64,000 nt of DNA from Shouchella clausii (GTDB lineage: Bacteria > Bacillota > Bacilli > Bacillales > Bacillaceae_D), in assembly GCF_002250115.1 (NCBI RefSeq), contig NZ_CP019985.1:124001-188000 (forward strand), written 5' to 3'. Shown piece after piece: positions 37,608 through 47,224 of the stretch. The translations under genes were made by a program, and so were the position numbers. The notes beneath the pieces are model-generated. The model ran no database searches. It saw nothing but the letters and a program-made list of their open reading frames with translations, and was not told the origin of the DNA. Numbering within the stretch: the stretch's first letter is position 1; each line of letters starts with the position of its first letter.

Positions 37608-39338
37608 TTATTGTTCTACAAAGGCAAACGCGTTGACATCAAACAGCCCTTTTGACGTCAGTTTAAGTGCAGGGATGACTGGGAGTGCAAGGAAAGCCAA
37701 TGTTAAAAACGGATCGATTTGCTCTTTATAGCCGAGATGGACGAGTGATTGCTGGAGCTCATTGAGCTGTTGTTTGACTGTTTCCGCTGAAGCCGTTGAC
37801 ATCAAGCCGCCCAGTTTGAGAGGCATTGCCGCAAGCACGTTGTTTTCCTTTACGACGGCCATTCCACCCCCTAAGCCAGCAACATGGTGAATGGCATGGT
37901 ACAAACTTTCATCATCTCCCCCTACAGCGATGAGGTTATGGGAATCATGGGCTACAGTCGCGGCAATCGCCCCCTCTGAAAAAGGAAAGCCCTTTACAAT
38001 GGCAAGTCCGATATGTCCCGTCGCCTGATGGCGTTCCACGACTGCAAGCTTTAGCCATTCGCCGCCAGGTTGAAAAATACCATTTTCCGCTGGAACGGAC
38101 GCCATCGCTTTTTTCGTCACAATCGAGCCGAGCGTCGTTTCAATAACAGGGGTCGATTGTGGGTTTTTCAATTTCAGCGTTAAGTCCTCTCGTGCAAATG
38201 GAGAAATATGGACACTGTTCAATAATCGCTCTGGCACGGGGTAAGGAGCGCGGATCGGGCTCGTTAGTTCGCCTTTTTCGGCTACGAGCATGCCCTTTGC
38301 ATACACGGCATCGACTTGAAACGTGGAAAGGTCTGACACGAACAGAAACGACGCTTCTTTTCCAGGAGCAATGGCCCCTTTATCATCAAGTTGAAAGCAT
38401 TCAGCTGCATTTAAGGTGCCGATTTGGATCGCTTGGAGTGGCTCCATGCCGAGTTCAATCGCCTTGCGGACATTAAAGTCAACACTGCCTTCTTTCAGCA
38501 AGTCATCTAGATGCTTATCATCTGTCGCAAAGGCAAACCGCCGCGCATTAGCTGCTGTAACGGCTGGCAAGAGCGCCTCGATATCACGTGCAGCCGTCCC
38601 TTCACGCATCAGCACATAAAATCCACGCTGGACTCGTGCTTTTGCTTCCTCAGCAGTTACAGCTTCGTGGTCATTGTGAATGCCAGCTGTCCGATATGCA
38701 TTTAATGCCTCGCTATTTAGCCCTGCTGCATGGCCATCAATGGGGCGCCCCTTCGCTCTCGCCATTGCGATTTTTTCAAGCATGTCGTCATCGCCATTTA
38801 AAACTGCCGGGTAGTCCATTACTTCTCCTAGCCCGTATACGCCTTCGTTCGCAAAAAGCAAGCGCGCATCTTCGGCAGAAAGGGAGGCGCCATTTTCCTC
38901 AAAGGATGCGGCAGGCACACTTGAAGGAACGGCCATTTTGATATCAAGAGGCAAGTCTTTAGCTGCTTCAACCATGTATGTCACCGCTTCTACACCAGCA
39001 ACATTGGCAAGTTCATGAGGATCGGCAATCGCCGTAAGCACGCCTTTTGGAACAAGGACACTAGCAAAATCTTCAGGGCGAACCATCGCCGATTCAATAT
39101 GGACGTGGCCATCAATAAGCGGAGGGCATACATATTTGCCTTGGGCATCAATCACTGTTTTGCCTTCTTTATAATCGCCAATGCCAACAATATGGCCATC
39201 TGTGATTGCGATAGAAGCTTCATAGATGGTTAACGTATAAACATCAATCAGTTTGCCGTTAATGACCAAAATATCAGCCGGCTCCTGTTTGCTTGCTGCG
39301 GCAAGCCGTTTTTTGTAGGTAGCGTGATGGCGGTCCAT
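37608..39338 (-). CDS. adeC: adenine deaminase
   Basis: 576 residues, normal for AdeC. Amidohydrolase start with the HVHIESAMV metal motif near residue 78, [15 protein letters not shown] near 170, [14 protein letters not shown] near 204, and a C-terminal domain with [18 protein letters not shown]. Converts adenine to hypoxanthine and ammonia in purine salvage. ATG at 39338 with AAAAGGAG upstream. Lies next to yerC and yerA, the latter a paralogue. Confidence 0.93.
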
Positions 39339-39480: not shown

Positions 39481-39789
39481 TCAATCTTGCGGCTCTTCCT
39501 GGGCTTCAATCCGGTCAAGCGCCATCCGGTAGCTATCGTTGCCGTAATTTAGACAGCGTTTAACTCGGGAAATGGTCGCTGTGCTAGCCCCAGTCTCTGT
39601 CTCAATTTTGTGGTACGTATAACCATCACGCAACATCCGAGCAACTTCTAGCCTTTGCGCAAGTGACTGGATTTCATTAATGGTGCAAAGATCGTCAAAA
39701 AACTCATACGCTTCTTCTAAATTTTTGAGAGACAAAATCGATTTAAAGAGCTGATCTAGTTCTTTGCCCCGTAATTTGTTGATCTGCAA
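39481..39789 (-). CDS. yerC: YerC/TrpR-like DNA-binding protein
   Basis: 102 residues with an unmistakable YerC sequence (MQINKLRGKELDQLFKSIL at the start; LCTINEIQSLAQRLEVARML and the HTH GASTATISRVKRCLNYG). TrpR superfamily; in B. subtilis its target is not well defined. TTG start at 39789, AAGGTG 9 nt upstream. Located between adeC and yerA; the yerA-yerC neighbourhood is conserved with B. subtilis. Confidence 0.93.
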   Translation of the reverse strand: MQINKLRGKELDQLFKSILSLKNLEEAYEFFDDLCTINEIQSLAQRLEVARMLRDGYTYHKIETETGASTATISRVKRCLNYGNDSYRMALDRIEAQEEPQD

Positions 39790-39872: not shown

Positions 39873-41618
39873 TTAACGCATTATCGCCGGAAATAGTATT
39901 CCTTTCTTCCGAACATCGTAGATCCCCCGTTGCGTTACCCGAATATAAGGCAAATGCGTAGCTGAAAAAAACTGCAAACTATACATTGGATCTTCAAATT
40001 TGTAGCCCCGTTCCCGCAGGAGGCTAACAAACGACTGTTCTTCTGCCATAATTTCTTCCATCGGCGCAGCGGACATCATGCCAAGAAGAGGCAAGCGGAC
40101 ACGGCTGATCACTTCCTCATTCTCAACAAGAATGAGCCCGCCCCCTTGTGCTTTCAACTCATTAAACGCCTGGATCATGGCTGAGATCGATTTGCCGATC
40201 AAAATGATATCGCCTGTATAAGAGTAAGAACTGGCCATGCCCATAACCGCCGTGGCAAACCCTTTTAATGTTGTCGTCACAAGCCATTTGCCCTGCTTGT
40301 CGACCATCGCAAAAAACGATTCATCATGGTCTGTCGCTAACTCCGTTGCCGCCGTTTCCAGAGTCGTTTGATAAGGCTTTAAAATAACCGCGTTTGTCAT
40401 TTCAATCCCCATTGGCATCGAAAAATGGAGCTCATCTTCACCTAGACTCCAGTCAATGTGAATCGGACCAATCCCATAGTCGCCCCACTCAAATGGCGCT
40501 GTTTCTTTTCCTTGTGGAGTGCCATCTCTTAACACCCACTGCCCTTTAGCCAAAACGCTTTTAGGCATTGGATCGTCCATACTTTCGAGAAAGTTCAAAT
40601 GGGCAATGCGGCCTGGAGCGATCATGCCGAGTTTATGGTCGATATTATAATAACGGGCGACATAATAGGTAGCCATGCCGTATGCATCAACAGGATCAAG
40701 GCCGGCTTCCAGGGCAATTTTAATACATTGGTTCATTACACCATCTTTATAGAACGACGGCGGTGAACCATCAGTCGTCATCAAGCAACGCCCAAAATAA
40801 TCGACGCCTAGCTCCTTCATTTCCTTGAACAAGCGAGGCAAATCAGGGCGGATCGAGGAATAGCGCAGCGAAACGGTGTACCCGAGGTCCAAACGGCGCA
40901 CAACTTCTTCGCCCGTAATCGCTTCGTGGTCGCACGTCACGCCAAGAAGCGCCATTTGCGACAGCGTCTTTTCAGAAGCTCCTGGCAAGTGGCCTTCGAT
41001 TGGCTTCCGCAGCCTTGTTGTTTCCTGCATCCAATGCAATGTCGTGTCATCGCCTTGCAGCACTTTCGGCCATGACGTCAGTTCCCCTCCTTGCACCACC
41101 AAATGGTGTTCAAGCCAAGCCTTCATTTTTGAATTGGAAAACATTTCATCTTTGATTAACTCTGTTTGTGAATCGTAGCGCGCCCACCAGTACATCGTTG
41201 TCGGCAATTCTTCCAGTTTCTCGATCAAGGAAAGCGCTTTCTTTTTTTCCAAGTTCAAAAAATAAACCAAGTTGTCATTGATAAGTGTCGTTGTCCCACG
41301 CTCAGAAGCATATTTTGCCAAACTGTATGGATTATACAGTTGAAATGGATGGGCATGGTGCTCAATATAACCAGGAACAATGTATTCGCCTGTACAATCA
41401 ACCACTTCCGCATCGCCTATCTGCTCTGGCAAGCTTTTGCCAACATAAACAATTTGGTCATCCGCAATCCAAATATTTGCTTTCAGCCATCTTCTTCTGG
41501 CATGGTTTAAATACGTAGCATTTTTTAAGACTATTGTTGGCGGGCGCTCCCCTTTTACAACACTTAGATGTTCCCGCAGCCTTGTTTTCGTCCAGCGGTG
41601 AATCCGCTCCGTGCTCAT
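39873..41618 (-). CDS. yerA: YerA, adenine deaminase-related amidohydrolase
   Basis: 581 residues from the ATG at 41618 (GAGTGA just upstream; a GTG three codons earlier is possible). Adenine-deaminase-like: the metal motif appears as EHHAHPFQLYNP near residue 90, EGHLPGASEKTLSQ near 190, and CDHEAITGEE; the C-terminal domain is conserved. Unlike AdeC it lacks the HVHIES form. B. subtilis YerA has similar length and is next to yerC and purD. Activity on adenine is unproven for this branch. Confidence 0.88.
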   Translation of the reverse strand: MSTERIHRWTKTRLREHLSVVKGERPPTIVLKNATYLNHARRRWLKANIWIADDQIVYVGKSLPEQIGDAEVVDCTGEYIVPGYIEHHAHPFQLYNPYSLAKYASERGTTTLINDNLVYFLNLEKKKALSLIEKLEELPTTMYWWARYDSQTELIKDEMFSNSKMKAWLEHHLVVQGGELTSWPKVLQGDDTTLHWMQETTRLRKPIEGHLPGASEKTLSQMALLGVTCDHEAITGEEVVRRLDLGYTVSLRYSSIRPDLPRLFKEMKELGVDYFGRCLMTTDGSPPSFYKDGVMNQCIKIALEAGLDPVDAYGMATYYVARYYNIDHKLGMIAPGRIAHLNFLESMDDPMPKSVLAKGQWVLRDGTPQGKETAPFEWGDYGIGPIHIDWSLGEDELHFSMPMGIEMTNAVILKPYQTTLETAATELATDHDESFFAMVDKQGKWLVTTTLKGFATAVMGMASSYSYTGDIILIGKSISAMIQAFNELKAQGGGLILVENEEVISRVRLPLLGMMSAAPMEEIMAEEQSFVSLLRERGYKFEDPMYSLQFFSATHLPYIRVTQRGIYDVRKKGILFPAIMR

Positions 41619-41860
41619 CGTTATCACTCATTTCATCTCGTCAATCTTAGTTTTATTTTACCATATTAAGAACAGCATTTGATTGTTAAATGTGACATTT
41701 CTTCACATCTTTTTTGCTATCGGCTATTTGTGATCCTTTGTCTACTTAACATTCAAACACACTTCTACCACTATATATCCGCCATTCTCCTTTTATGTCA
41801 ATTTCTTTATTGAAAAGGAACTTTAAGACAAGCAATTAGCAGGCTTCGTTACACAGAGCA

Positions 41861-41929: not shown

Positions 41930-42982
41930 TCACCTTTTTTTCGCCTGATACTGACCATATAATTGGCCGCAGGCGGCATCAATTTCTCTTCCAAATTGAC
42001 TCCGAATCGTTACAGGGATTCGAGCTGATTTTACGACACGGTAAAAAGTTTGCAGTTTCTCTTCTATGGTTTGGCCATAGTCTTCAGGCGTACCAACAGT
42101 CGGATTGTAGCGAATCAAATTGACATGATAGAGATGGGGATAGCGATTGTTTAGAATCCGTTTAACAAGTGCTTTCGCATGCTTCTCCGAATCATTGACT
42201 CCCCGAAGCATGACGTAAGCAATATAAACTTTTCTCCCTGTCTCGTGAATATGCTGATCCAATACATTCATTACCTGGTCTAACGGGTACTTGTTGTTAA
42301 TCGGCATCAACTTGCTGCGCTGATCATGGAAAGGAGAGTGCAGCGAAAACGTTAGGTTCACCTGAGGAAAACTGCTAGTCATTCTTTGGATGTTTGGTAT
42401 GATGCCAACAGTAGAGACCGTTATTCTTCTAGGGCTTAATGCAAATAGTTGCCGATCGACAAGCACATACAAAGCATCAAATATCCTTACATTGGCTAGC
42501 GCTTCGCCCATGCCCATAAAAGAGACACTATCTAAGGAATGCCCCTTTAGATAAAAATAGAGCAACTGGTCTGTAATCTCGTCTGCTGATAAGTTTTGTT
42601 TTAACCCAATGGCCCCTGTCGAACAAAACGTACACCCTAACCCACAGCCACATTGAGAAGAAATGCAAAACGACTCCCACCCTGCTTCATAATGCATTCT
42701 TACTGCTTCCACTTGGTTGTTTCCCGCTACTTTTAGCAACACTTTAGTGACTTGTTGAGACGTTGTTTCTAGCACTGGCTCCACTGTAAGAATAGAAGGT
42801 CCAAATTCGTTTAAGAGCGCTTCCCTCAGTGCTTTTGGCAATGTGGTCATTTTTTCAAACTCACCAATACGGTGTTTAAAAATCGCTTCTGTAATCTGTT
42901 TATACCGGTACGTCGGTTCATTTAAAGCATTCAAAAAATGTTTTAATCGTTCGTATTTCGTCGCATGATTGACAACTTTCAT
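41930..42982 (-). CDS. clcD: Cfr-type 23S rRNA (adenine(2503)-C(8))-methyltransferase
   Basis: 350 residues from the ATG at 42982 (Cfr has 349). Radical-SAM motif CGCGLGCTFC with Cys113, Cys117 and Cys120; the second catalytic Cys of the RlmN/Cfr family is in IDAACGQLYG near residue 338. The protein shares long stretches with Cfr (AGWESFCISSQCGC, SFMGMGEALAN, FALSPRR, VNLTFSLHSP, KLMPIN), more than with RlmN. Cfr methylates A2503 at C8 and confers resistance to phenicols, lincosamides, oxazolidinones, pleuromutilins and streptogramin A. Cfr-like genes of Bacillales, including one from this species group, were reported functional; the symbol is from memory. Regulation is described at its leader. 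Confidence 0.88.
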   Translation of the reverse strand: MKVVNHATKYERLKHFLNALNEPTYRYKQITEAIFKHRIGEFEKMTTLPKALREALLNEFGPSILTVEPVLETTSQQVTKVLLKVAGNNQVEAVRMHYEAGWESFCISSQCGCGLGCTFCSTGAIGLKQNLSADEITDQLLYFYLKGHSLDSVSFMGMGEALANVRIFDALYVLVDRQLFALSPRRITVSTVGIIPNIQRMTSSFPQVNLTFSLHSPFHDQRSKLMPINNKYPLDQVMNVLDQHIHETGRKVYIAYVMLRGVNDSEKHAKALVKRILNNRYPHLYHVNLIRYNPTVGTPEDYGQTIEEKLQTFYRVVKSARIPVTIRSQFGREIDAACGQLYGQYQAKKR

Positions 42983-42991
42983 TTTGTGCGC

Positions 42992-43026
42992 GCCTCCTAA
43001 TAGATAAAATTTCAATATTAGGAGGC
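42992..43026 (-). promoter_or_regulatory. stem that sequesters the cfr-like gene Shine-Dalgarno
   Basis: On the minus strand GCCTCCTAATA (43026 to 43016) pairs perfectly over 11 bp with TATTAGGAGGC (43002 to 42992) across a 13-nt loop. The second arm contains the AGGAGG site of the methyltransferase gene, whose ATG is 10 nt further on. In this fold initiation should be blocked. The first arm contains the stop codon of a 12-codon leader frame. Confidence 0.8.
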
Positions 43027-43056
43027 TTTTTCATGTACGGGCACCGCTTGTTTCAT
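43018..43056 (-). CDS. 12-residue leader peptide of the cfr-like gene
   Basis: ATG at 43056 preceded by AGGTGA; encodes MKQAVPVHEKAS and stops TAA at 43018-43020, inside the first arm of the stem that hides the methyltransferase ribosome binding site. A ribosome stalled on the last codons would break the stem, as in the leaders of erm and cat genes. The short frame, site and overlap are seen; drug-dependent stalling is inferred. Confidence 0.65.
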   Translation of the reverse strand: MKQAVPVHEKAS

Positions 43057-43079
43057 GCTTCACCTACTTTCATGCATAG

Positions 43080-43108
43080 AAAAAGACACCGATTTAGAAA
43101 CCGGTGTC
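43080..43108 (-). terminator. intrinsic terminator inside the cfr-like leader
   Basis: GACACCG (43085-43091) pairs with CGGTGTC (43102-43108) around a 10-nt loop and is followed on the minus strand by TTTTTC. It lies between the 27-codon upstream frame and the 12-codon leader, so it may act as a transcription attenuator; otherwise it ends a short independent transcript. Confidence 0.7.
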
Positions 43109-43205
43109 TCATTACATCGCTCGATATAACAAAAGTAGCTTGTTTATAGAGCCCATTCATCTTAATCCTATATGAAAATGAATAGCACTCCACATCGCTA
43201 CTTTC

Positions 43206-43289
43206 TTATTTAGAAGGCACGCTACTTCCGGTCACTGTTTTTATCGTATGAAGTTTATTTATCCCATCATTCATAAAAACAGTAGCCAT
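43206..43289 (-). CDS. 27-residue upstream ORF in the cfr-like leader
   Basis: ATG at 43289 with AAAGGAGG 7-8 nt upstream, stop TAA at 43206-43208. The peptide starts MATVFMNDGINKL and ends TGSSVPSK; no family is recognised. Downstream, AAAGTAGC (43204 to 43197) can pair with GCTACTTT (43139 to 43132), forming a long stem before the terminator. A possible -10 box TAATAT is at 43322-43327 with a poor -35. Candidate sensor ORF of the leader. Confidence 0.5.
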   Translation of the reverse strand: MATVFMNDGINKLHTIKTVTGSSVPSK

Positions 43290-43382
43290 TGTATGTTGCC
43301 TCCTTTCATTTGTTAGGTGCTATATTAACATGTTATCTGTTCTTTTGCCACAATTTTTTGGTTGTTATGCTCACATTGAAAA

Positions 43383-43414: not shown

Positions 43415-44347
43415 TTATTCAGCTTTCAAATCTTCAATGGAATCAATATCCATATAACTTGGCACTGCGAGGCCGATGCGTGGCTCGCCGTCAAGGTTGA
43501 CGCCTAAATCGTCGACTTTGCTTTCATCAAAGAAGCTGCCGTGTGTAATTGGCAACCATGCAGCAACACTTGCATCTTGGTCGCCAGATTCAAGCGATTT
43601 CCACATTGGCCCGTTTTCAACGACACTCAGTTCGACATCATAGCCAACTTGCTCAAGGGCAAGGGCAAGCACATTGGAAGAAGCTACTTCTGAATCCCAG
43701 TTTACGAGTACAAGGGAGAATGATTCTCCATCGACTGTCTCAACGCCGTCAATCCATTCATCGACTTTTTCTTGGTTGTTATCAACCCACTCTTGAGCAG
43801 CATCCGCTGGATCAGCGCCTTCATGCACAGCCAGCATGACTTCGTTCATGTCATCCTCGCTCCAGAAGAAATTATCAACGACTTGATAGCCTTCAGGCTT
43901 CTCGCTTTCCAAACCTTGGCGTGCAATCGTATGAATCTCTTCTGTACCGCCGAATGAACCTTCTGGATCATCCAAGTATTTTAAGTCATAGGCAGCAAAC
44001 TTCCAATGTGGATTCCATGCGGTTACAACGATTGGCTCATGTTTTTGGATGGCCGTATCCAACGCTTGTGCCATGGAAGAAGAGCTGGACGTTTGCAAAG
44101 TCAAGTTCGTCAAGTCATAATCTTCAATCGCCCGCTCCGCTGCTTGGGAAACGCCTGCGCCTGGGTCAATTCCTGTAATGACCGATAGATCATTATGAAT
44201 ATCTTCTTTAGAAATCATGCCTTCATCCGTAGAGCCAACTGGATTAGAGTCTGAACCGTTGCCGTTGTCATCACCATTCCCACAAGCCGCAAGTGTTACG
44301 GCAAGGGCCAATCCTGTTGCTGTCATCGTAACGTGTTTAATATTCAT
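43415..44347 (-). CDS. opuAC: glycine betaine/compatible solute-binding lipoprotein (OpuAC-like)
   Basis: 310 residues. Lipoprotein signal with Cys22 in LAACGNG, then the betaine-binding fold: GIDPGAGVSQAAERAIEDYDL near 60, WNPHWKFAAYDLKYLDDPEG near 110 (aromatic residues that form the cage for trimethylammonium groups). Delivers the solute to the OpuAB/OpuAA channel. Third gene of the operon, preceded by a hairpin. Confidence 0.9.
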   Translation of the reverse strand: MNIKHVTMTATGLALAVTLAACGNGDDNGNGSDSNPVGSTDEGMISKEDIHNDLSVITGIDPGAGVSQAAERAIEDYDLTNLTLQTSSSSSMAQALDTAIQKHEPIVVTAWNPHWKFAAYDLKYLDDPEGSFGGTEEIHTIARQGLESEKPEGYQVVDNFFWSEDDMNEVMLAVHEGADPADAAQEWVDNNQEKVDEWIDGVETVDGESFSLVLVNWDSEVASSNVLALALEQVGYDVELSVVENGPMWKSLESGDQDASVAAWLPITHGSFFDESKVDDLGVNLDGEPRIGLAVPSYMDIDSIEDLKAE

Positions 44348-44378
44348 TTCATTACCCCCTGAATTTAAATCTATAGTG

Positions 44379-44401
44379 AAAAGAGCGGTTGCCGCTCTTT
44401 T
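44379..44401 (-). terminator. intra-operon hairpin between permease and binding-protein genes
   Basis: AAAAGAGCGG-TTG-CCGCTCTTTT with TTTT on the minus strand. It lies just after the permease stop, so it may reduce read-through to the binding-protein gene or stabilise the upstream message. Confidence 0.65.
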
Positions 44402-44406
44402 GCTAC

Positions 44407-45243
44407 TTATTCGCTTTGTTTTTTGTTAAAACTTTGCGTTAAACGGTCGAGAATAATCGCCAATATAACGATCGCAATACCAGCTTCAAAGCCATTGCCA
44501 ATATTATTTTGTCCAACTGCGCTATAAACAACCTGGCCTATTCCAGTTGCCCCGATCATTGCCGCGATCACAACCATAGAAAGGGCAAGCATTGTGCTTT
44601 GGTTAATCCCAGCCATGATCGTTCCCCGAGCCATTGGCAGTTGCACTTTAAATAGTTTTTGCGTGCCTGTTGAACCGAATGCGTCTGCTGCTTCAATTAA
44701 TTCTGTTGAAACTTGGCGAATACCTAGGTTCGTCATGCGGACAGTCGGCGGCATGGCAAATATGACAGAAGCGACAACGCCAGGAACCATGCCGATGCCA
44801 AAGAAAGCAACAGCCGGGATCAAATAAACAAATGCTGGCATCGTCTGCATAAAATCAAGTACTGGTTTAATAATGGCTTCTGTCCGGTCGTTTTTCGCCA
44901 TTAAAATGCCAACTGGAACACCGATGACGACTGAGATCAAGCAAGCTGTTAAGACGAGTGCCAACGTATCAAGCATGCCGTTCCAAAAACCAAGGCTGTC
45001 AATTAACAACAGGCCGAGGATCACAAAAACGGTCAAGCCCCATTTGCGGTTCGTCCAATACGTAAGCGCGCCGATAATAAGAACAAACAGCCAACTTGGC
45101 GGCAAGGCGATGACCCAGTAAATCCCGTCCATGACCTTTTCAATCGTAAAATCAATGCCATTAAACAACCAAGCAGCATGCTGCAGCCATTCTACAAACG
45201 CTTCAACCCAACTACCTAGTTCCAGACGGGGTAGAAAATCCAT
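44407..45243 (-). CDS. opuAB: glycine betaine ABC transporter permease (OpuAB-like)
   Basis: 278 residues from the ATG at 45243 (GAGG 9 nt upstream). Six to seven membrane segments and a binding-protein-dependent permease loop (ELIEAADAFGSTGTQKLFKVQLPMA near 185). Overlaps the end of the ATPase gene by 32 nt, indicating translational coupling. Imports betaine-type osmoprotectants together with OpuAA and OpuAC. Confidence 0.9.
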   Translation of the reverse strand: MDFLPRLELGSWVEAFVEWLQHAAWLFNGIDFTIEKVMDGIYWVIALPPSWLFVLIIGALTYWTNRKWGLTVFVILGLLLIDSLGFWNGMLDTLALVLTACLISVVIGVPVGILMAKNDRTEAIIKPVLDFMQTMPAFVYLIPAVAFFGIGMVPGVVASVIFAMPPTVRMTNLGIRQVSTELIEAADAFGSTGTQKLFKVQLPMARGTIMAGINQSTMLALSMVVIAAMIGATGIGQVVYSAVGQNNIGNGFEAGIAIVILAIILDRLTQSFNKKQSE

Positions 45244-46438
45244 TAAAATCAACCTCACTTCCCGATAACGCCCCAAGAACGGCGCTTCTTACAATAATGC
45301 CTTGTAGCTTGTTGCCTTTAATGACAACAAGAGGCACGGAACTGCTCGCAAGCTGCTCCATCAATTCATTAATTGGCGTGTCCAATTCGACTTTCGGCAC
45401 ATCTGTCACAATAATGCTGTCAATGCTATTAATATTTTGTTTGATTAACTCCGAAACATCGCTCGCATGGACGATTCCAACTAGCTCCCTATTCCGTTTC
45501 GTTACATAAATGCTAGAAATTTTCGCATCGCGCATCCGTTGCAAGGCAACACGCGGTCCGTCTTTTTCCAAATTAATCGTTTCTGGACGGATCATGACAT
45601 TTTCCGCTGTAAATACTTTTGAGCGGTCCACATCCTCCACAAACCGCTCAACATAATCATTTTCCGGTTGTGTGAGAATTTCTTCAGGCGTGCCAATTTG
45701 CACGACCGAACCGTCTTTCATAATCATGATGCGATCACCGATACGGAGCGCCTCATCCAAGTCATGGGTAATAAAAATGATCGTTTTGTTCATCGTTTCT
45801 TGCAAATCTAATAATTCGTCTTGCATATCTTTCCGAATGAGCGGATCAAGCGCAGAAAACGCTTCGTCCATTAACAGGACATCCGGATCATTGGCAAGGG
45901 CACGTGCAAGCCCTACACGTTGCTGCATTCCGCCAGAAAGTTGCGAAGGATAACTATTTTCGTATCCTTTTAAACCAACAAGTTCAAGCGACGATATCGC
46001 TTTTTCACGGCGCACCTGCTTCTCAATGCCTTGCACTTCAAGGCCATACTCCACGTTTTCAATCAACGTCCTTGTTGGAAACAAGCCAAACTTCTGAAAG
46101 ACCATGCTCATCTTTTTGCGCCTAACTTCCCGAAGGCTTTTCCCATCCATCTTAGCGAGGTCCTCACCGTCAATCCAAACACTTCCTGATGTCGGTTCAA
46201 TCAAACGGTTCAGCAGCCGCACAATTGTTGACTTACCGCTGCCGGAAAGCCCCATAATAACAAAAATTTCACCGTCTTCGACTTCAAAACTTGCTTGGTT
46301 AACACCAACCGTGTGGCCAGTTTCTTTTAATATGTCCGCTTTGGATTTTCCTTGTGCCAACATGTCCAGAGCCCGTTTCGGTTTTTTCCCAAATACTTTT
46401 GTCAAGCCCTCAACCCTAATTTTTGACAAGTTTTCCAC
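45212..46438 (-). CDS. opuAA: glycine betaine ABC transporter ATP-binding protein (OpuAA-like)
   Basis: 408 residues. The N-terminal segment ALDMLAQGKSKADILKETGHTVGVNQASFEV is diagnostic of OpuAA/ProV. Walker A GLSGSGKST, signature QLSGGMQQRVGLARALA, Walker B DVLLMDEAFSALD, and two C-terminal CBS domains from about 280. CBS domains sense ionic strength in relatives. GTG at 46438 opens the frame, but the TTG at 46429 has better spacing from GAGGTG. First gene of the operon, divergent from a GbsR-type regulator. Confidence 0.92.
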   Translation of the reverse strand: MENLSKIRVEGLTKVFGKKPKRALDMLAQGKSKADILKETGHTVGVNQASFEVEDGEIFVIMGLSGSGKSTIVRLLNRLIEPTSGSVWIDGEDLAKMDGKSLREVRRKKMSMVFQKFGLFPTRTLIENVEYGLEVQGIEKQVRREKAISSLELVGLKGYENSYPSQLSGGMQQRVGLARALANDPDVLLMDEAFSALDPLIRKDMQDELLDLQETMNKTIIFITHDLDEALRIGDRIMIMKDGSVVQIGTPEEILTQPENDYVERFVEDVDRSKVFTAENVMIRPETINLEKDGPRVALQRMRDAKISSIYVTKRNRELVGIVHASDVSELIKQNINSIDSIIVTDVPKVELDTPINELMEQLASSSVPLVVIKGNKLQGIIVRSAVLGALSGSEVDFNGFSTPSGTR

Positions 46439-46678: not shown

Positions 46679-47224
46679 ATGGAGAAGGCAAACGAGCATA
46701 GCAACGGCGTTGACGAGCAACTTCAGGAAATCAGAGAACAGTTTATCCATGAGCTTTCGACCAATTTTCATCTATATGGCATTAACGAATCAGTCGGTCG
46801 TCTTTATGGTACGCTATTATTTGAAAACGATACTTTAACGCTTGATGAAATGAGCCGGCGCCTAGGGATGAGCAAAACAAGCATGAGCACTGGCATTAGA
46901 CAGCTTGTTGATGCCAATATGGCGCGGAAAGTGTGGAAGAAAGGCGTCCGCAAAGACCTTTATATTGGAGAAGAAGATTGGTACGCTTCTTTTATCGCGA
47001 TTTTTTCGAAAAAATGGCGCCAAGGAATTGAAAACAACAAAAAAGCAAGCGTGCAAATGGAAAAACGCTTGCTTGCATTACAGAAAGAAGCCCCCGAACA
47101 AGCAGAAGTCATCGCTTCCGACTTAAAAAAAATCGCCCATGCCAAAGCATATTACGACTGGCTCGACCGCTTTATCGACTTTTTAGAGAGCGGCGAGATT
47201 TTTGAGCATTTGGAGAAGAACTAA
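46679..47224 (+). CDS. GbsR/OpcR-type MarR-like transcriptional regulator
   Basis: 181 residues. MarR-type winged helix at about 25-95 (GINESVGRLYGTLLFENDTLTLDEMSRRLGMSKTSMSTGIRQL), then a long helical C-terminus. GbsR and OpcR repress glycine betaine synthesis or uptake genes in B. subtilis. It is divergent from the opuA-like operon, which it probably controls. ATG at 46679 with GGAGG 6-7 nt upstream. Confidence 0.87.
   Translation: MEKANEHSNGVDEQLQEIREQFIHELSTNFHLYGINESVGRLYGTLLFENDTLTLDEMSRRLGMSKTSMSTGIRQLVDANMARKVWKKGVRKDLYIGEEDWYASFIAIFSKKWRQGIENNKKASVQMEKRLLALQKEAPEQAEVIASDLKKIAHAKAYYDWLDRFIDFLESGEIFEHLEKN

Follow-up and report, generated by a model that had tools for sequence, protein, structure and literature searches.

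A candidate two-stage leader with separate short frames upstream of a chromosomal cfr homologue of Shouchella clausii

Described attenuators and the leader upstream of cfr

Leaders in which a drug-stalled ribosome on a short upstream open reading frame (uORF) relieves a block on a resistance gene are the closest described counterparts of the element analyzed here, the leader of a cfr homologue in a 64,000-nucleotide (nt) stretch of Shouchella clausii DNA (the window, part of a 4.5-Mb genome). They are compared as far as the passages cited describe them. First, vmlR of Bacillus subtilis, which regulates an ABCF protein, is preceded by a proven transcription attenuator with a single uORF of three codons (MIN) (PMC9226507). 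This uORF lies in an anti-antiterminator hairpin and is accompanied by an alternative antiterminator and an intrinsic terminator; a hairpin that partly sequesters the Shine-Dalgarno (SD) sequence was proposed as a further layer, and its mutation left leaky expression unraised (PMC9226507). Second, tlrB (yxjB) of B. subtilis was shown by experiment to be controlled at two levels through one frame: this 23S ribosomal RNA (rRNA) methyltransferase gene lies behind a terminator and an SD-sequestering hairpin, which are opened by a ribosome stalled by tylosin at RYR in a nine-codon frame, with NusG-dependent pausing (PMC6851288). Third, the attenuators of cat and fexA act at the level of translation, with chloramphenicol and florfenicol as drugs (PMC5418344, Table 1), and frames of this type comprise nine codons (PMC12190993). 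Fourth, the erythromycin-induced ermB has two leader peptides, and the title of its description speaks of translational attenuation (PMC8274638). Finally, for the mobile cfr of plasmid pSCFS1, the legend to Figure 6 of PMC8752094 presents a translational model with two overlapping uORFs, an occluded ribosome-binding site and an alternative start; Schwarz 2000 and Kehrenberg 2007 are cited there for regulatory elements.

The cfr leader of the window shares elements with each of these systems. Like the vmlR leader, it contains a uORF with an SD sequence and mutually exclusive anti-antiterminator, antiterminator and terminator, as predicted by folding and compared with shuffles; unlike that leader, it has a second frame over an SD trap. 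As in tlrB and ermB, the gene that follows is of the 23S rRNA methyltransferase kind, and with tlrB it shares the layout of a terminator plus an SD-sequestering hairpin, but the passages on tlrB describe no two-frame layout, while ermB is set apart by its erythromycin induction and its attenuation at translation. With cat and fexA it has in common a strong trap (GCCTCCTAA...TTAGGAGGC in L137-L139 and L143-L147) and a short frame that enters its anti-SD strand, although the in-register frames tested there have nine codons and that of the window has 12. The mobile cfr(A) gene shares the long uORF and the occluded ribosome-binding site (PMC8752094), and folding predicts a three-arm switch in its leader (L126); in contrast, no terminator is mentioned in the cited legend on pSCFS1, and L126 lacks a separate second frame over the trap. 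Each of the two locks is of a known kind, and what is new is that a vmlR-like lock and a cat-like lock, each with a frame of its own, are combined before cfr. A preliminary description of this DNA had named as precedents the drug-stalled leaders of erm and cat genes and the suppression of terminators before other ribosome-protection genes. It also knew of no such leader for cfr genes; this has to be narrowed in view of the pSCFS1 model, and it holds for the terminator as far as that legend goes. Among the matches listed from the open-licence literature, no terminator, transcription stage, two-level control or second frame was found for cfr leaders.

The leader is a well-supported regulatory element, and with a probability of about three in four it forms a two-lock switch opened by antibiotics via ribosome stalling on two frames, uORF1 and uORF2 (Table 1). 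With no ribosome on the start of uORF1, arms 1 and 2 would pair, the terminator would form and transcription would likely end ahead of cfr. If a ribosome stalled on codons 1-3 of uORF1, it would cover arm 1, leaving arm 2 to pair with arm 3 and RNA polymerase to proceed. In read-through transcripts, the AGGAGG of cfr would remain hidden in the trap; it would be exposed when one of uORF2 codons 8-12 occupied the P site of a stalled ribosome, which would thereby cover the anti-SD strand. By analogy with vmlR, the first lock may respond to lincosamides and pleuromutilins, which stop ribosomes near the start codon; by analogy with cat and fexA, the second may respond to phenicols. Of the antibiotic control at both levels proposed in the preliminary description, the transcription and translation stages are supported by comparison (the switch in diverged leaders, trap and uORF2 at 80% identity, the traps of phenicol resistance genes), and induction by an antibiotic is inferred.

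On the minus strand, the terminator, the 11-bp SD trap and both short frames were confirmed where they had first been placed, and they exceed chance in shuffles and controls. The fold of the 361-nt leader had a z score of -7.8, with none of 100 shuffles equally stable. The energy of the trap duplex (-18.6 kcal/mol) was attained by none of 2000 dinucleotide shuffles of the upstream DNA, and among 179 control open reading frames (ORFs), i.e., ORFs of the window and the fetched loci that have a site and were scored in the same way as the cfr leaders, none reached even -16. A scan of the window at the gathering score gave no Rfam match, neither a known riboswitch nor another element.

The transcription stage

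The RNA was folded as it would exist before the second strand of the terminator is made, with a ribosome represented by 31 blocked nt. Without a ribosome, arms 1 and 2 held 14.6 expected pairs and arms 2 and 3 none, while a ribosome at codon 1 or 3 of uORF1 gave 5.9 and 5.6 expected pairs, respectively, between arms 2 and 3. A segment pairing equally well with both partners was found in none of 300 shuffles of the intervening DNA, the best of which reached 0.96 of the observed score.

For comparison, 111 cfr leaders were available: 90 of Paenibacillaceae type (assigned by exclusion, 86 distinct), 15 in which the switch was tested and six in neither group (L091, L093, L094, L122, L127 and L128). 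L080 (no start), L117 and L125 (upstream DNA too little or misplaced) and L124 (broken cfr) had been dropped beforehand. With a ribosome at codon 1, the identical switch was predicted in 12 of 13 other leaders, including that of mobile cfr(A), the exception being L098. It was also predicted in L097, which precedes the closest Cfr homologue outside the genus (80% identical), with 11.7 pairs between arms 1 and 2 in the absence of a ribosome and 10.5 between arms 2 and 3 in its presence. Overall, the three-arm switch folded in 14 of the 15 leaders tested; since these fall into about four lineages, they do not represent 15 independent cases. The arms diverge between lineages yet remain complementary (ACTGTTTTT/AAAAACAGT, ATGTTTTCGC/GCGAAAACAT, GCGATATGAG/CTCATATCG). 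Cognate arms 1 and 2 paired with a median of -13.4 as compared to -4.8 for between-lineage swaps (one of 54 swaps as good), and cognate arms 2 and 3 with -13.1 as compared to -9.05 (four of 54 as good), the latter contrast being weaker because a CCGG core is common to the lineages.

At the near-identical locus of Shouchella rhizosphaerae, arms 1 and 2, the terminator, uORF2 and the trap carry no substitution, as compared to 21 substitutions and 27 indel columns in 148 aligned sites upstream. A pairable stem AAAGTAGC/GCTACTTT noted in the preliminary description is present in the window. It is not conserved, the GCTACTTT arm being changed in S. rhizosphaerae, and it was dropped as antiterminator; the segment that switches partners in the folds is arm 2. 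In its start (M-x-TVF) and middle (IKTV-G), the uORF1 peptide resembles the leader peptide of cfr(A) type. Since arm 2 of the window was identical to five other leaders at 13-16 of 22 positions, with shuffled maxima of 15-16, homology of uORF1 is only suggested.

The terminator is separated from uORF2 by 26 nt, in which the consensus scan listed no promoter-like site, so cfr needs terminator read-through. The comparisons support the first stage as a predicted vmlR-like transcription attenuator.

The second frame and the Shine-Dalgarno trap

The trap strands GCCTCCTAATA and TATTAGGAGGC form 11 perfect pairs ahead of the cfr start at 42982. In blocked-RNA folds, a P site at uORF2 codons 8-12 freed the AGGAGG of cfr (0.53-0.68 unpaired versus 0.0), codon 7 gave 0.28, and codons 1-6 gave 0.0. 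In L097, the uORF2 counterpart reads MIPVNDKAS followed by a stop, so that the end pattern PVx[ED]KAS-stop is kept. The trap of that leader, GCCTCCTAAAAT/ATTTTAGGAGGC, has a different loop and differs at the tenth pair by a compensatory change on both strands from U-A to A-U. The preliminary description had proposed that the stem and both frames be compared across relatives. Trap and uORF2 proved to be retained, unchanged in S. rhizosphaerae and with the compensatory pair in L097, and the length of uORF1 varied.

A blind search for the pattern GCCTCCTAA-N6-26-TTAGGAGGC across 398 genomes of the class returned sites in 14 genomes, while the reversed pattern occurred in none. At ten of the 14 sites, the gene that directly follows could be assigned to a named family: two are cfr, seven are catA (for type-A chloramphenicol acetyltransferase, each scoring over the curated cut-off) and one encodes an exporter closest to FexA (699 bits, below that model's cut-off of 900). 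No long gene adjoins the site in L134, L136 and L141, and the remaining one, L142, adjoins an ORF without a known family; some of these four look terminator-like. At eight of the ten named-family sites, a start codon opens a short frame that enters the trap and ends in AS-stop (e.g., MKKADKSAS, MRKAVDIAS and MKKAIDVAS); the frame of L146 has no recognized site, and L137 and L147 have no in-register frame. Considered separately, the catA loci (L137, L138 and L143-L147) and the fexA-like locus (L139) all carry the GCCTCCTAA/TTAGGAGGC trap, six of the eight with an in-register AS-stop frame. Since the same kind of trap and frame precedes catA and fexA-like genes, the second stage looks like a cat-type attenuator.

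A leader without any antibiotic sensor, in which the trap merely sets low constitutive translation while the short frames arose by chance or act as spacer, would fit the AS-stop ending, which is forced by the complement of the trap. It is nevertheless very improbable, given that two frames with sites are each positioned for a stalled ribosome to switch a fold, that conservation includes a compensatory change, and that the trap keeps company with catA and a fexA-like gene, for which attenuators are known (PMC5418344, Table 1). Almost as improbable is control by a single ribosome stalled on uORF1 that opens both locks, with uORF2 as a mere spacer whose passing ribosomes give leaky expression. 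tlrB (PMC6851288) and vmlR (PMC9226507) do use one frame each, and opening by one sensor is known for the former and proposed for the latter. On the other hand, the predicted leader folds show no pairing between uORF1 and the trap, uORF2 has its own site, L097 retains its end and frame, and an equivalent frame plus trap precedes catA genes.

Within the two-lock switch, the second stage agrees with the cat and fexA type in that a short frame with its own SD sequence overlaps a stable anti-SD strand with its end. In cat-type attenuators, a ribosome stalled at codon 5-6 reaches the stem. Chloramphenicol and like drugs act preferentially when the penultimate residue of the chain is alanine, serine or threonine; uORF2 has alanines at positions 4 and 11. 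The nine-codon geometry was not found in the window, where a P site at codons 5-6 of the 12-codon frame leaves the SD sequence fully paired, but the nine-codon frame of L097 fits it (0.52 unpaired at codon 5). Judged from its sequence, the second stage looks like a cat/fexA-like translation attenuator, though it is no textbook member.

Trap scores were compared across leaders after removal of L122 (misplaced start), which left 110, and of L093, which has no site, so that 109 were scored; the score captures only part of the Paenibacillaceae-type stem. The median was -8.0 for cfr leaders and -6.0 for the 179 controls, and scores of -8 or better were reached by 59 of 109 and 41 of 179, respectively.

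Several observations weigh against the two-lock switch. At -10 kcal/mol or better, only 10 of 109 cfr leaders remain versus 22 of 179 controls, so the trap signal is modest across leaders. A separate second frame with a site running into the trap region occurs in only three of the 111 leaders, those of the window, S. rhizosphaerae and L097, of which two are almost the same; in three further leaders (L020, L033 and L045) the first frame ends near the trap. As uORF2 extends three codons beyond the cat-type frames, a stall at codon 5 would not reach the stem (0.0), and the complementarity of GCCTCCTAA to the site in part dictates the AS-stop ending. As to the first stage, the switch of the window folds only for ribosomes on codons 1-3 of uORF1 (0.5 pairs at codon 5, none at codon 8), and the arms were picked by eye in all leaders, the shuffle test on the window being the sole blind control. 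The antiterminator of the window is short (6 bp including a G-U pair) and, at -9.5, no stronger than swapped arms 2 and 3; as it is weaker than the terminator (-16.4), co-transcriptional timing is required. Finally, the length of uORF1 is not conserved: it has three codons more in S. rhizosphaerae (30 versus 27), and L097 has only the three-codon MKY-stop with a poor site.

The last two points would be expected if only the trap over uORF2 responded to drugs in the manner of cat, while the terminator and the 27-codon frame served as a leaky stop or encoded a small protein and read-through was not regulated. The second stage is also the one that matches known systems most cleanly. This explanation is unlikely, since the 26-nt gap with no listed promoter-like site makes cfr dependent on read-through, the three-arm switch folds in nearly all leaders tested, and arms 1 and 2 and the terminator are identical in S. 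rhizosphaerae.

Related leaders, mobile cfr and the genomic locus

In the Paenibacillaceae-type leaders, a uORF of 25-60 codons belonging to one family (M..EVVDDxVNRF..EAVH..PExYxSIDRCT) was present in 85 of 90. Counted per sequence, the motif pair TCTCC...GGAGA lay over the cfr site in 89 (all except L048), and both halves of an alternative helix, GCCGGAG in the uORF and CTCCGGC in the anti-SD part, were found in 66; in L085 these halves have changed together, to GCTGGAG and CTCCAGC. By a simple motif, a terminator-like hairpin was present in 39 of the 90, which means that some leaders show no transcription stage. Covariation was assessed in the whole alignment of the 86 distinct leaders with 500 shuffles. 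The trap columns were 85.2% paired (shuffled mean 84.6%, maximum 85.8%); as they are shifted by indels and lie within the shuffled range, this count gives the trap no support. The uORF hairpin (96.2% versus a mean of 94.2%) and the helix between uORF and anti-SD part (92.9% versus 90.4%) exceeded all 500 shuffles, an excess that related sequences can show without structure. In some leaders of the ranges L018-L096 and L102-L123 (e.g., L020, L079 and L123), an ABCF-like 3' end lies just upstream, as judged by eye.

On Lysinibacillus plasmid pFN9D, the frame of the leader before cfr(A) is annotated as a 59-amino-acid 'hypothetical protein', WP_013356267.1; it was located at L126:1161-1340 and also in L131, and its 16 relatives found are all hypothetical or without a name. 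The predicted terminator of the mobile cfr(A) leader is weaker (-6.1 kcal/mol) than those of six whole-genome relatives (-10.6 to -15.3). Cfr was encoded in 181 plasmid records (E <= 1e-60), in 42 of them below 60% identity. The cfr(A) leader matched 134 plasmid records at least in part, 90 of them over at least 80% of its length. Its body occurred in 92 records, the uORF start in 44 and the anti-SD part in 56; if the records with the latter two all fall within the 92, at least 48 are without one or the other part. Three shortened cfr(A) leaders were aligned with L126, and plasmid copies (e.g., L131-L133) differ in the parts kept. No leader frame of the uORF1/cfr(A) kind was seen before mobile cfr(C) (L128) and cfr(D) (L127), the plasmid search with the leader of the window gave no match, and the phage search found no Cfr.

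The annotation of the leader peptide as a hypothetical protein and the varying leader parts of plasmid copies suggest a regulated ancestor for mobile cfr. Tentatively, and with more doubt than confidence, chromosomal cfr genes of Bacillales might share an ancient RNA attenuator, to which the Shouchella lineage would have added a cat-type one. This would yield a two-sensor AND gate for near-start drugs and phenicols, with full Cfr only when both locks are open, and mobile cfr(A) would descend from such a regulated gene and be losing leader parts. A leader that is opened by drugs would likely explain why cfr genes look silent in related bacteria, and in such bacteria cfr-type resistance could go unnoticed in susceptibility tests made without prior exposure.

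The gene downstream of the leader had been called cfr-like, and its protein scored 619 bits against TIGR04432 (cut-off 550) and 276.5 bits against the RlmN model, under the cut-off of 290. It is 62% identical to mobile Cfr(A) and 33% identical to RlmN of its own genome, and CxxxCxxC and C338 are retained. By these sequence features, it is a putative Cfr-family 23S rRNA A2503-C8 methyltransferase, which would confer multidrug (PhLOPSA) resistance. The features of the leader and gene are given in Table 1.

Table 1. Features of the cfr leader and the cfr homologue in the window.
Feature	Position	Strand	Basis or remark
Possible extended -10 promoter element (TGT TAATAT)	43322..43330	-	By eye, absent from the consensus scan list; inferred
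SD sequence AAAGGAGG of uORF1	43299..43306	-	Sequence
uORF1, 27 codons, MATVFMNDGINKLHTIKTVTGSSVPSK	43206..43289	-	Sequence
Arm 1 (uORF1 codons 1-6), partner of arm 2	43272..43289	-	Predicted duplex, -15.3 kcal/mol
Arm 2 ATAAAAACAGTGACCGG, partner of arm 1, or of arm 3 as antiterminator	43228..43244	-	Folding, shuffles, comparison
Antiterminator part of arm 2, GACCGG	43233-43228	-	Predicted to pair with arm 3
Arm 3, first strand of the terminator	43097..43110	-	Predicted duplex with arm 2, -9.5 kcal/mol
Core of arm 3, CCGGTT, pairing with arm 2	43104-43099	-	Folding
Intrinsic terminator-like stem-loop, 12 pairs, then TTTCT	43083..43110	-	Scan; -16.4 kcal/mol
SD sequence AGGTG of uORF2	43061..43065	-	Sequence
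uORF2, 12 codons, MKQAVPVHEKAS and stop; final codons and stop form the anti-SD strand	43018..43056	-	Sequence
Anti-SD strand of the trap, GCCTCCTAATA, holding the uORF2 stop	43016..43026	-	Folding, comparison
SD strand of the trap, TATTAGGAGGC (AGGAGG of cfr at 42998-42993)	42992..43002	-	Folding, comparison
cfr homologue, 350 amino acids, putative Cfr-family 23S rRNA A2503-C8 methyltransferase	41930..42982	-	TIGR04432, identity comparisons

The length of the leader before cfr is estimated at about 330 nt. Upstream on the minus strand, a gene for a glycine-betaine/choline-type binding protein (family from a profile match under the curated cut-off) is followed by a terminator-like site, the leader and cfr. 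Glycine-betaine/choline-type ABC transporter genes with a divergent regulator-like gene extend over 43415-46438 and 46679-47224, the labels other than that of the binding protein being assigned by eye.

In the genus, cfr was present in two of 13 genomes, the remaining matches being at RlmN level; in the family, it was present in two of 41 and in the class in 29 of 398 (E <= 1e-90). In the phylum draw, it was present in one of 398, the source genome itself (E <= 1e-110). A scan of genome contigs was considered for the best 80 of 117 confirmed cfr loci, which belong chiefly to Paenibacillus, Cohnella and Brevibacillus; the protein of S. rhizosphaerae is 97% identical and the others are 56-63% identical. 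Among these 80 loci, three genomes carry two each (L030/L059, L088/L089 and L095/L096). Elsewhere in the window, two adenine-deaminase-like proteins are encoded at 37608-39338 (by eye) and 39873-41627 (196 bits, under the TIGR01178 cut-off) around a small gene at 39481-39789 that appears TrpR/YerC-like by eye.

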